Below are positions 29,965 to 34,469 of a stretch of 34,490 nucleotides of DNA, piece after piece. The notes beneath the pieces are model-generated. The model made no database searches and was not told the DNA's origin. It saw only the letters and a program-made list of their open reading frames with translations. The translations under genes were made by a program, and so were the position numbers. Source of the stretch: an uncultured Clostridium sp. (lineage in GTDB: Bacteria; Bacillota; Clostridia; TANB77; CAG-508); assembly GCA_946497905.1 (NCBI GenBank), contig CAMMMI010000004.1:1-34490 (forward strand), read 5' to 3'. Position 1 is the first letter of the stretch, and each line of letters begins with the position of its first letter.

Positions 29965-29986
29965 ACTATTATAGGAGATGAGAACA

Positions 29987-31228
29987 ATGTTAATAAAATT
30001 TAATTTTAAAAACTTCAAATCTTTTAAAAATGAAAATTGTTTAGATATGGAAGCAGCCTCTATTAAAGAACATGAGTATAATACAATTAATATTAAAGAT
30101 AAAAAATACTTAAAGGTTGCTGCTATTTATGGTGCAAATGCAAGTGGAAAAACTAATGTATTAGAAGCATTTGAATTTATGAAGGAAAAATTAATGATTA
30201 GTGATGACACAAATATGAACAGTTCTGAAATAGACAACTATTACAACTTTTCTTTTGATGAAAAAACTAGAAATGAACCAATTGCATTAGAAGTTACTTT
30301 TTTAGCCGAAAACAAAAAAATATATCAGTATGGATTTGAGATAAAGAATAAAGTCATTGATTCTGAATGGTTATATGTTAAAAAAGTAAACAAATCCACC
30401 CCTATTTTTGATAGAGATGAAAATAAAGTCAGATTTAATAAATCTTATAAAGCTAAAATAAACAAATTTGATGTTGACTCTAACTCTTTGTTTTTGAGCC
30501 TATATCGAAAAATAGAAAAAGATAATGAAGATTTTAAAAGTGTTTATAATTGGTTTTTAAATAGCTATTACTTAGATTTAAGAAATCCTAAATTTGAAAA
30601 TAGAATTAATCATTTAATCTCTTCAAAAATTATTAATGATAAAGAATACAAAAAAAGATTAGTTGAGTTTATAAAAGTATTTGATTTAGGCATTGATGAT
30701 ATAGAAGTAAAAACAAGAGATATAAAAGATATTAATAATGGTGCACTTTCAAGAATAGAATTAAAAGCTGTCCATAAAAATGAAAATGGAGAGAAAACAC
30801 TTTTACCTTTTTCATTAGAATCAAAAGGAACTTTAAAAATGTTTTATTTATATAACTTTATAATGGATGCGTTAGAAGATGGAAGTAGACTATTTATTGA
30901 TGAATTAGATGCTAAACTACACCCTCTTTTAACAAGATATATTATTAATTTATTTCATGATAAAGAAAAAAATCTTGGTAATGGCCAGTTGATTTATACA
31001 ACACATGATATAACAAATTTAAATAAAGAAACTTTTAGAAGAGATGAAATTTGGTTTACTGAAAAAGATAACTATGGTGTTTCTGAATTATTTTCTCTAT
31101 CTGATTATAAAATTGACAATACCAAAGTTAGAAATGATGCAACTTATAATAAGGATTATATAACTGGAAGATATGGTGCTATTCCAGTATTTGAAGAATT
31201 TAATATAAAAACCAATGAGAAATCATGA
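29987..31228 (+). CDS. AAA family ATPase, AbiLi/RloA-like
   Basis: SMC-like P-loop ATPase of the kind that pairs with a TOPRIM nuclease in anti-phage (abortive infection) systems such as AbiL/RloAB. N-terminal IKFNFKNFKSFKNENCLDME is the usual opening. Walker A is IYGANASGKTNVLEAF at about residue 48. Signature-like LPFSLESKGTLKMFYL precedes Walker B RLFIDELDAKLHPLLT, followed by the histidine switch IYTTHD. Length of 413 is normal and all ATPase motifs look intact. AGGAG precedes the ATG at 29987 (MLIKFNFKN); the track start lies three codons upstream inside that site. It overlaps rloB by 14 nt. As the partner has an early stop, the pair may now be inactive. Confidence 0.85.
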   Translation: MLIKFNFKNFKSFKNENCLDMEAASIKEHEYNTINIKDKKYLKVAAIYGANASGKTNVLEAFEFMKEKLMISDDTNMNSSEIDNYYNFSFDEKTRNEPIALEVTFLAENKKIYQYGFEIKNKVIDSEWLYVKKVNKSTPIFDRDENKVRFNKSYKAKINKFDVDSNSLFLSLYRKIEKDNEDFKSVYNWFLNSYYLDLRNPKFENRINHLISSKIINDKEYKKRLVEFIKVFDLGIDDIEVKTRDIKDINNGALSRIELKAVHKNENGEKTLLPFSLESKGTLKMFYLYNFIMDALEDGSRLFIDELDAKLHPLLTRYIINLFHDKEKNLGNGQLIYTTHDITNLNKETFRRDEIWFTEKDNYGVSELFSLSDYKIDNTKVRNDATYNKDYITGRYGAIPVFEEFNIKTNEKS

Positions 31229-31853
31229 TAAAAGCAGAAATAAGGTAGCTTCTAAAAAATTAGCCCCACCTAACTACCTTATTATCTGTGAAGGCAAAGA
31301 AACATGGCCTAATTATTTTAACGGTTTAAAACAAAAGATAAATAAAAAATTTGGAGATAGAATCAGTATTATACCTGCTATAAAAATAAAAGGTACTGGC
31401 TTAAATACTGAAAGTTTAGTTAAATATGCAAAACAGTAAATAAATAAATCTCCCAAAGTTTACGGACAAGTTTGGGTAGTATTTGATAAAGATGATTATA
31501 GTGATGAGCAATTTGATAATGCAATAAAATTAAATGAATATAATTCTGCTTGGTCTAATCCAAATTTTGAAATTTGGTTATTATCACATTTTAAAAAAAT
31601 TACTACTCCCCTATCAAAAAATAATACTTCAAAAGAACTAAAGAAAGAATTTCATAATGCTGATTTAGGTAGTTATTCTAAAGATGATAAAAAAATTTTC
31701 GAGAAGGTAACAAAAGATAATAGATTAGAAAGTGCTATTAAAAACTCTAAAGAAATATATGAAGAATTTACTTGCATTTCTTCTAATGCAAGTAAAAATC
31801 CTTGCACTACAGTTTTTATGTTAGTGGAAGATTTGAGTGAATATTTGAAATGA
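31215..31853 (+). pseudogene. rloB: RloB-like TOPRIM protein interrupted by an in-frame TAA
   Basis: The first 74 codons give LAPPNYLIICEGKETWPNYFNGLKQKI, carrying the TOPRIM Glu. A TAA then stands at 31437-31439. The same frame continues without shift for 137 more codons with the rest of the family: VYGQVWVVFDKDDYSDEQF (the TOPRIM DxD region), SAWSNPNFEIWLLSHF, and SSNASKNPCTTVFMLVEDL, ending at a TGA. Total length (about 211 residues) equals a complete RloB. One base change from CAA, GAA or AAA would explain the stop. The two TOPRIM acid clusters fall on opposite sides of it, so a truncated protein should be inactive. Read-through or a sequencing error are the alternatives. Confidence 0.8.
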
Positions 31854-32093: not shown

Positions 32094-34469
32094 TTATTTT
32101 GAAACTTGTTCCCTTTTCTCTGCTTTTTGTTTTTGATATTGCTTTATTTCATGAATCACATTATTTATTTCTTGTAATCCTATTTCTTGTGTGTCATGTT
32201 CGCTTGTAGTTGGTGTTACTGAATTTTGTTCATTGTTTTCTTGTACTTCTTGAGATTCTATAACTTGCTTTTTCCTTTCATTAATTTCTTTACAAATTTC
32301 TTCTGCATCTACATACATCATCCCTTCTGGATTTAATCTTTTAGGATTTTTTACAACATTAATAAATTCATCATATCTTATAGAAGAATCTATTTGTCTT
32401 GCTAATAAAAATAGCCCTGCTATTTGAGGTATTGCATAACTAGAACCACAAAGACTGCCATTATACTTATATATTGGTTTTCCATCTTCTCCCATATGTA
32501 TATTAGTCCTTCCTGTAGCTGGTAATATTACTGTACTAGGAATATTTTTTATTACTTTATTAGTCCTACTATTTTTATCACTTTCTTTATTACTTATTGT
32601 TTTTAGTAATTCATCTAATAACACTACTTCACCATTATTACTAGTTCTTCCCCATGAGAAATCCTTCCAAAATTTGCTGGAATCTAACAGAGTACATCCT
32701 TTTTTCTCCAATTTATCTAACATTTTTTGACCTTCTCTTGATGTTTGTATATCAGCTGATATACAAATTATATCTGGTTTAATATCGCTTTCTACAATAT
32801 ATTCTAACATCATTTCTTTAGCTTCTTCCCATGATATATTACCAACACTAAATATATACATTTCTGTTTCTGGAGCCACTCCACACTCACTACCTGCAAC
32901 TAAACAAGCTGTTGTATTTCCATGTGAGCCATCCATATATTTTTCTTCATACTCTTTGCGAAAATCATTTTTTTTATCTCTTTCGAATATAATATTTGCA
33001 ACAATTTCCCCATTTCTATCTTTTTCTAGTACAATATGCTTAACAACTCTGCCTTCAAATTCACTTATTGAACTATTAAAATATCTATCAAGTATAGCAA
33101 TAGTAGTTCCTTTTCCGTTAATTCCATTTTCGTGAAGACCTTTTTTTGCCTTAACATTAGAAAATTTTTTGCCTTGCTCTAAAAGTTTTTCTGGATGAAA
33201 TCTCTTTATTTGTTCATCTGAAAAAATAGTTTTACTATCGAATGTTAATCTTCTAAAATTTTCTGGTGATAGACTACTCATATCTATTTTAGATACATCT
33301 TCTCCACATATTCCTTCAAGAATAAATGATAAATCATTTTCTGTATTTCTACTGGTAATCCCTCCAGCTATTTTTTCGAATTTTTGCTCTATATATTTAT
33401 CATCAATATGGATTGCTCTTACTTGCTCAATACCCAATAGTTCTCTTGACATTCCTTCAGCAAATTCTAATACATTGTTATATGGCTTCACACTACTTTG
33501 AACAGTTTTCAAAAAATCGATATTTTGTATTTTTTCTGCAAATTCTTTTCCGTAAATTTCTTCAATTAGTGGTATATCTCTTTGTATTTCACTTATAACA
33601 TTTTCTAATTGCTGTGTATTATTTCTATTTTTATACATAAGAACATAAGGATATATCATTCCTCTTATTTTTATAATTCCCATATCTTCTTTTGAAAAAT
33701 GTTCTGTTCCGTTCCATGTCTTTTCGTTTGCCTCTGTATGTAGGAGTTCATTATCTTTAATTCCTAACTCTTGTAAATCTTCTGTTTTAAGCGTTCTATC
33801 TTTATATGGTATTTTCCCTGAATGAAATATACTTTGAAAGCAATTTGAATGATTTGCTATGTCTATTCCCATTTCTCCATTTGCCAATAATTCAATAATA
33901 GTATGTTTTAAATGTGAATCTAATTCTCTTTGCATTGGATTTTTAAAGTTTTCTTTACTCTTTGGTGGTATGTCTGCGTGCATTTTTTCATGAAATAGTA
34001 TTACACTTTCTATACCTTCTGTATATTCCATTCCAAACATTTCTTCAAACTCTTTTTCATCTATTGGAATGGTAAATTGTACTGCAAACTCTCCATTATT
34101 ATTTTTATCTGATAAACAACAAGGCTCTGCACTAAATAATTCTGGTGTAAATGGCATATATATAATTTTTTTAACATTAGTATTACCTATAATGTTCTCT
34201 GCATTTTCTTTATAATCTTGTGTTTGCCCTATAAATCTTTGTTGCATTTCATTTGAGTATTCTTCATTCATTTGTTCTACTTCTTTAAAAAAGTCTGTAT
34301 TCAATAAATTTTCCATTGCTACTGCCATTTCTGGATTTGCCTCTTGTATTTCTTTCATATTAGTTTGTGCAAAACTAGCAATATATTCTCCATATTCAGC
34401 CCACATATTTTTTTCTTCAGCATTATTTTTAAAAGTATTAAATTCTTCTAGACCTTTTTGGTTTTCCAT
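32094..34469 (-). CDS. Large protein with HEXXH-containing N-half and divergent subtilisin-like (S8) C-half
   Basis: 791 residues, no signal peptide or membrane segment. The N-half is not a family I know but holds VILFHEKMHADIP, an HEXXH zinc-peptidase motif (H160, E161, H164). RELDSHLKHTIIELLANGEMG follows, whose E182 lies 18 residues on, a possible third ligand. The C-half is S8-like: Asp461 in GKGTTIAILDRY, His516 in DGSHGNTTACLVAG, Ser677 in GSLCGSSYAIPQIAG. The Asn of the oxyanion hole is not obvious (KKGCTLLDSSKF stands there). A Gln/Glu/Lys-rich tail ends it. The ATG lacks a ribosome site, and an in-frame TAA stands 21 nt upstream at the window edge. It could be a cytoplasmic defence or toxin-like protease, or one for peptide maturation; neither is shown. 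Confidence 0.78.
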   Translation of the reverse strand: MENQKGLEEFNTFKNNAEEKNMWAEYGEYIASFAQTNMKEIQEANPEMAVAMENLLNTDFFKEVEQMNEEYSNEMQQRFIGQTQDYKENAENIIGNTNVKKIIYMPFTPELFSAEPCCLSDKNNNGEFAVQFTIPIDEKEFEEMFGMEYTEGIESVILFHEKMHADIPPKSKENFKNPMQRELDSHLKHTIIELLANGEMGIDIANHSNCFQSIFHSGKIPYKDRTLKTEDLQELGIKDNELLHTEANEKTWNGTEHFSKEDMGIIKIRGMIYPYVLMYKNRNNTQQLENVISEIQRDIPLIEEIYGKEFAEKIQNIDFLKTVQSSVKPYNNVLEFAEGMSRELLGIEQVRAIHIDDKYIEQKFEKIAGGITSRNTENDLSFILEGICGEDVSKIDMSSLSPENFRRLTFDSKTIFSDEQIKRFHPEKLLEQGKKFSNVKAKKGLHENGINGKGTTIAILDRYFNSSISEFEGRVVKHIVLEKDRNGEIVANIIFERDKKNDFRKEYEEKYMDGSHGNTTACLVAGSECGVAPETEMYIFSVGNISWEEAKEMMLEYIVESDIKPDIICISADIQTSREGQKMLDKLEKKGCTLLDSSKFWKDFSWGRTSNNGEVVLLDELLKTISNKESDKNSRTNKVIKNIPSTVILPATGRTNIHMGEDGKPIYKYNGSLCGSSYAIPQIAGLFLLARQIDSSIRYDEFINVVKNPKRLNPEGMMYVDAEEICKEINERKKQVIESQEVQENNEQNSVTPTTSEHDTQEIGLQEINNVIHEIKQYQKQKAEKREQVSK

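Follow-up and report, generated by a model that had tools for sequence, protein, structure and literature searches.

The window, which is the whole stretch of DNA that was analysed, is 34,490 nt long and constitutes an entire contig. Its features of concern here are a gene for a two-part, protease-like fusion protein running off the contig end and an AbiL-type neighbour on the other strand (Table 1). The preliminary description of this DNA had given the product of the fusion gene as 791 residues; the ORF of 791 codons is present, but it is incomplete at its 5′ end. Because the window is a whole contig, a homologue (95% identical) in locus L003 has 68 extra N-terminal residues, and a matching start of the fusion gene is present at the end of a second contig from this genome (C122, locus L121), the ORF was judged to be truncated, and from these alignments the true protein is predicted to begin ~68 residues before the readable start. 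On C122, the start of the fusion gene is found 18 bp downstream of a gene for a helical protein of ~150 aa, referred to here as SP. The ends of the window and of C122 show no exact overlap and were left unjoined. The missing N-terminus likewise shows no signal peptide, in agreement with the earlier statement that the protein has no secretion signal.

Table 1. Positions of the fusion gene, its parts and its AbiL-type neighbour in the window.
Feature	Position	Strand	Remark
Fusion gene, readable part, 791 codons	32094..34469	(-)	5′-truncated by the contig end
Open frame running on to the contig edge	34470..34490	(-)	True start and SP gene predicted on contig C122
Metallopeptidase-like body (readable residues 1-352)	33414..34469	(-)	Homologues in 7/211 genus genomes; stand-alone in L004, L005, L247, L252
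HEKMH motif, residues 160-164	33978..33992	(-)	Invariant as HEK(M/L)H
Glu182, possible third metal ligand	33924..33926	(-)	Invariant in homologues
Subtilase half, ~residues 355-735, between metallo body and tail	32265..33407	(-)	Pfam S8 4.4e-5; PDB profile 3.2e-9
Predicted catalytic Asp461	33087..33089	(-)	Invariant in alignment A11
Predicted catalytic His516	32922..32924	(-)	Invariant in alignment A11
Predicted catalytic Ser677	32439..32441	(-)	Invariant in alignment A11
C-terminal tail type A (VTPTT.EHDTQEIGLQEINNVIHEIKQ..QK..EQVSK)	32097..32258	(-)	Also on unrelated L005:7709-10135 and L032:4909-7410 beside SP-A
AbiL-type neighbour (AAA_21/AbiLi protein plus RloB-like gene interrupted by an in-frame stop)	29978..31439	(+)	Judged unrelated to the finding

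The N-terminal half contains an HEXXH motif with a Glu 18 residues further on, exactly as had been described, and this exceeds the chance expectation, as an HEXXH arises by chance in ~0.9% of comparable proteins (0.64 in 72 after shuffling). The HEXXH with a downstream Glu is the pattern of zincin/gluzincin metallopeptidases, and HEK(M/L)H-x17-E was found to be invariant in 8/8 aligned homologues and in L247 too, so that both elements are kept in every homologue covering them. Profile searches with this half gave no Pfam family and no meaningful PDB match, and its AlphaFold model, built on a shallow alignment, was unusable (mean pLDDT 48.8, and 20-35 around the HEXXH). Since no family was recognisable and the model failed for the N-terminal half, the metal site is proposed as a putative one at the level of sequence. 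Locus L253, taken up as a metallo homologue through a weak order-level match, was rejected as it is a type IV secretion system (T4SS) locus.

The divergent subtilisin with a complete Asp/His/Ser set that had been proposed for the C-terminal half was recovered with the residues as given. The score with PF00082 was 23.4 bits, above the curated cut-off of 21.8, and D461, H516 and S677 stand in the order of the peptidase S8 triad and are invariant in all the sequences of alignment A11, which comprises five subtilase-type sequences, stand-alone ones among them; the stand-alone subtilase of L225 retains the triad too. Where the subtilisin oxyanion Asn aligns (TLLDSSKFWKDFSWGR), no Asn is conserved, the alignment being weak there. 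The motif ATGRTN was rejected as the oxyanion Asn site because the PDB alignment puts that site elsewhere, and L224 was rejected as a subtilase relative because it does not share the triad. Subtilases had been described as usually secreted; an unsecreted one is nevertheless no oddity in itself, since intracellular serine proteases are its closest relatives of solved structure, one of them being the best PDB profile match. The intracellular subtilisins (S8, ISP; PDB 7y6m, 7xr8) have in common with the subtilase half the Asp/His/Ser set and the lack of a signal peptide, but the window subtilase is very divergent, with 30-35% identity even inside its own group, has a metallo body joined to it on one side and a tail on the other, and has no conserved Asn where, in a weak alignment, the oxyanion Asn is placed.

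When all 211 genomes of the genus were examined, the metallo body was found in 7 and its fusion to a subtilase in 2 only, namely the genome of the window and that of L003 (G383); viral contigs and plasmids yielded no close relatives of the fusion. Each half also occurs alone as a complete gene, the metallo half in L004, L005, L252 and L247, always adjoining an SP gene, and the subtilase half in L038, L039, L040 and L225, with an SP gene adjacent in all but L039, beside which no SP was found. In L004, L005 and L252 the metallo body leads directly into the same tail as in the window protein. Since the metallo body meets this tail with no subtilase between, and related subtilases occur alone, the subtilase module looks, from these arrangements, to have been inserted between metallo body and tail. 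The fusion junction is common to two genomes, which argues against an assembly chimera. Thus, the earlier picture of an HEXXH protein fused to an unsecreted subtilase on a variable island is supported, albeit for a rare fusion, and its suggestion that one half activates the other finds no support because either half is complete alone elsewhere.

The final ~50 residues of the window protein form a detachable tail that recurs on otherwise unrelated proteins, every one of which adjoins an SP of ~150 aa. Across 69 SP-partner pairs, tail type was found to co-vary with SP type where the bodies are unrelated (r 0.316; 0.000 ± 0.033 when permuted, with 0/2000 permutations reaching the observed value), and the median SP similarity was 0.65 in tail-similar and 0.27 in tail-dissimilar pairs. 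The correlation persisted in SP-first units, in which the body lies between SP and tail (r 0.441, 0/2000 permutations), and when units of opposing gene order were compared (r 0.247, 0/2000 permutations), which indicates that linkage does not explain the match. Natural swaps were observed as well: the metallo bodies of L003-L005 and L252, beside SP-A, carry tail A, and those of L247 and L037 (the latter a frameshifted copy), beside SP-C, carry tail C. Similarly, two GH10 bodies with a similarity of 0.70 have SPs and tails with similarities of 0.18 and 0.17, respectively, and the subtilase of L225 bears the tail of its own SP class. A search for a motif common to all tails gave a weak Gibbs signal (516 versus 446-467 in shuffles) with none standing out. 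These comparisons show that the tail type of a partner is matched to the SP type independently of enzyme body and gene order.

By simple distance rules, a partner was assigned to 72 of 117 distinct SPs, some of the remainder being without full context. HEXXH is present in 16 of these 72 partners as compared with 0.64 expected from shuffled sequences, and the recognised domains include S8 subtilases, GH10, GNAT, amidoligase and HopA1-like domains on proteins of up to 860 aa. An N-terminal hydrophobic segment was seen in 0/69 partners, and no Pfam match to an LXG/WXG100 N-terminal domain was obtained for the window protein or the 60 partners scanned. Enzyme-like proteins of these gut bacteria, unrelated to one another and numbering dozens, bear tails matched to the adjacent SP. 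Signal-free GH10 partners of SP are encoded at L033 (6033-7751) and L230 (1848-3479), which is unusual for cytoplasmic proteins; the usual substrates of GH10 enzymes (xylans) lie outside bacterial cells.

The SP family is lineage-restricted. It was detected in 53 of the 59 genomes sampled from the genus (as many as 14 copies per genome), in 12/15 order members listed in a class sample of 293 genomes together with 1 other genome of that sample, and in no further genome of a phylum sample of 399. Searches of Pfam and NCBIfam returned nothing significant for SP, a fold search against PDB and viral libraries gave no match below E 1, no close relatives of SP-A were found among phages, and no description of the family was found in the literature searched. 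The predicted structure (pLDDT 81) is all-helical and consists of a helical domain at residues 4-102 (pLDDT mostly >90), a disordered linker and a separate C-terminal helix at 136-148. This last helix is amphipathic in 115/117 members, with a mean net charge of +4.4, and shows a pattern suggestive of membrane binding.

The reading that we place first, at roughly even chances, is that SP serves as a cognate tail-binding, membrane-docking adaptor for the delivery of modular cargo, the window gene encoding one such effector-like cargo. SP would bind the tail of its cognate partner, its basic amphipathic C-terminal helix would bring the cargo to the membrane, and the cargo would then be delivered, most likely out of the cell; the exporter, which is the weakest step, may be a T4SS, either the one encoded by the chromosome in this genus or one belonging to a mobile element. 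An adaptor of this kind best explains the SP-tail match, the amphipathic helix, the lack of N-terminal hydrophobic segments and the enzyme domains of the partners taken together. For the window protein, the putative insertion of the subtilase between metallo body and tail A suggests that both halves would travel as one cargo and that neither would regulate the other.

An unlikely alternative, yet the most serious one, is that SP is an antitoxin or a folding chaperone and, by way of the tail, keeps its toxic partner inactive, the pairs acting inside the cell. The tight two-gene units occurring in either order and the location of many pairs on mobile elements, an inovirus-like contig among them, would suit such a role. 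There is also precedent in the toxin-antitoxin-chaperone (TAC) modules, in which a C-terminal tail (ChAD), itself transferable, is recognised by a chaperone dedicated to it, much as a tail goes with a dedicated small protein here (PMC5105189, PMC6377645). SP, however, does not resemble SecB (neither Pfam nor PDB gave a match), and its tails sit on large enzyme-like proteins, GH10 with its extracellular substrates included; moreover, an antitoxin would have no need of a conserved amphipathic membrane-type helix, and no match to a defence library was obtained. We regard it as improbable that SP anchors enzymes unrelated to one another at the inner side of the cell membrane, where they would do housekeeping or sporulation work with no export; the near-universal basic helix and the partners lacking an export signal agree with this, but the extreme variability of the partners and the patchy occurrence of bodies such as the metallo body fit conflict-type cargo better.

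The defence role proposed earlier drew on the neighbouring AbiL-type pair. The RloB-like gene (31215-31853, plus strand) has an in-frame stop at 31437-31439 with the frame open beyond, the AbiL-type AAA protein being intact; owing to this stop the pair is probably broken, or else the assembly is in error. Next to the same fusion in L003, a mere 133-bp remnant of the AAA gene is left. PADLOC gave no match to the L003 fusion protein and a trivial one to SP (GajA, 14.7 bits), and the NCBIfam match of the protein to the anti-phage peptidase IteS reached 10 bits, the cut-off being 900. With no defence-family match and an interrupted RloB gene, a defence effector beside an AbiL system is unsupported, and a self-regulating double protease for anti-phage defence is very improbable, for although both catalytic sets are conserved and an AbiLi gene is adjacent, the halves are found separately as complete SP partners and their fusion is confined to two genomes. 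Elsewhere in the window, a YhgA-like transposase-family gene (PF04754; 17331-18326, minus strand) lies in otherwise ordinary chromosome.

With SP taken as a delivery adaptor, a possible export machinery was found in the window's own genome, where a chromosomal T4SS-like locus (L267; G000:C24:6000-19447) contains tandem VirB2-type pilins, PrgI-like, VirB4 and VirB6-like proteins and a wall-hydrolase protein; no coupling protein was seen near it. The locus also encodes a 1062-aa protein combining lysozyme, C39-like, M15 and beta-lactamase-like domains. The pilin family occurs in 56/59 genomes of the genus, and in the class sample SP was found in 13 genomes, this VirB4 in 13 and both in 10. Within the order the two are not associated beyond their shared presence. 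The chromosomal VirB4 was not found in the SP genomes G346, G045 and G354, G013 has SP with no pilin match, and G181 and G049 have the apparatus and no SP. Both SP and VirB4 occur mainly within a single order, and three of the genomes with SP lack VirB4, so that the T4SS is a candidate exporter only; since some genomes have SP with no VirB4 or pilin match and others have the apparatus with no SP, its role in exporting the cargo is hypothetical. The wider proposal of an undescribed delivery pathway in one gut Clostridia order, in which many classes of SP, each recognising its matching tail, feed a large repertoire of horizontally moving enzymes to a secretion apparatus, which might be a chromosomal T4SS with no coupling protein, is tentative and on balance doubtful.

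SP units were also seen on mobile elements. An ICE-like locus (L005, 126-18269) has PrgI- and VirB4-like genes with several SP-partner units adjacent, together with a Sel1-repeat-like protein and a GNAT protein. An inovirus-like contig with a Zot-like ATPase (L202, IMGVR_UViG_3300010278_000095) encodes an HELIH protein and SP at 672-2296 and was the only viral-type relative found, through its SP; from its gene content, the SP system appears to travel on this filamentous-phage-like element.

Several known systems resemble parts of this arrangement. In type III secretion, class I chaperones are small dedicated proteins encoded beside a variable effector, as SP is, but SP consists wholly of helices, one of them membrane-type, belongs to a monoderm lineage and probably recognises the C-terminus. 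The T4SS effector TfcB of Stenotrophomonas has a glycosyl hydrolase body followed by a C-terminal sorting region (PMC11253643), an architecture shared by SP partners, whose tails differ in that they form numerous classes, every class having its own matched SP alongside, and whose transport is postulated. The LXG effectors of type VIIb secretion in Bacillota likewise have polymorphic bodies with small helical targeting factors encoded alongside (PMC9600955); in the SP system the common part is C-terminal and one SP stands in place of two, and no T7SS components were seen at SP-partner loci. The wider SP-tail system is new and worth testing. If the adaptor reading is true, uncultured and abundant gut Clostridia would harbour a set of effectors so far overlooked and traceable through their position next to SP genes, the tail would be a testable address label, and a monoderm lineage would possess a cognate adaptor-tail code unrelated to type III, VI and VII chaperones.

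Directly 3′ of some SP genes (L005, L032, L103, L122 and L168) lies an ORF of ~40-50 codons, which in L005, L032 and L103 has a common M.DKKTEQM.EYL-like sequence and is possibly a third component.
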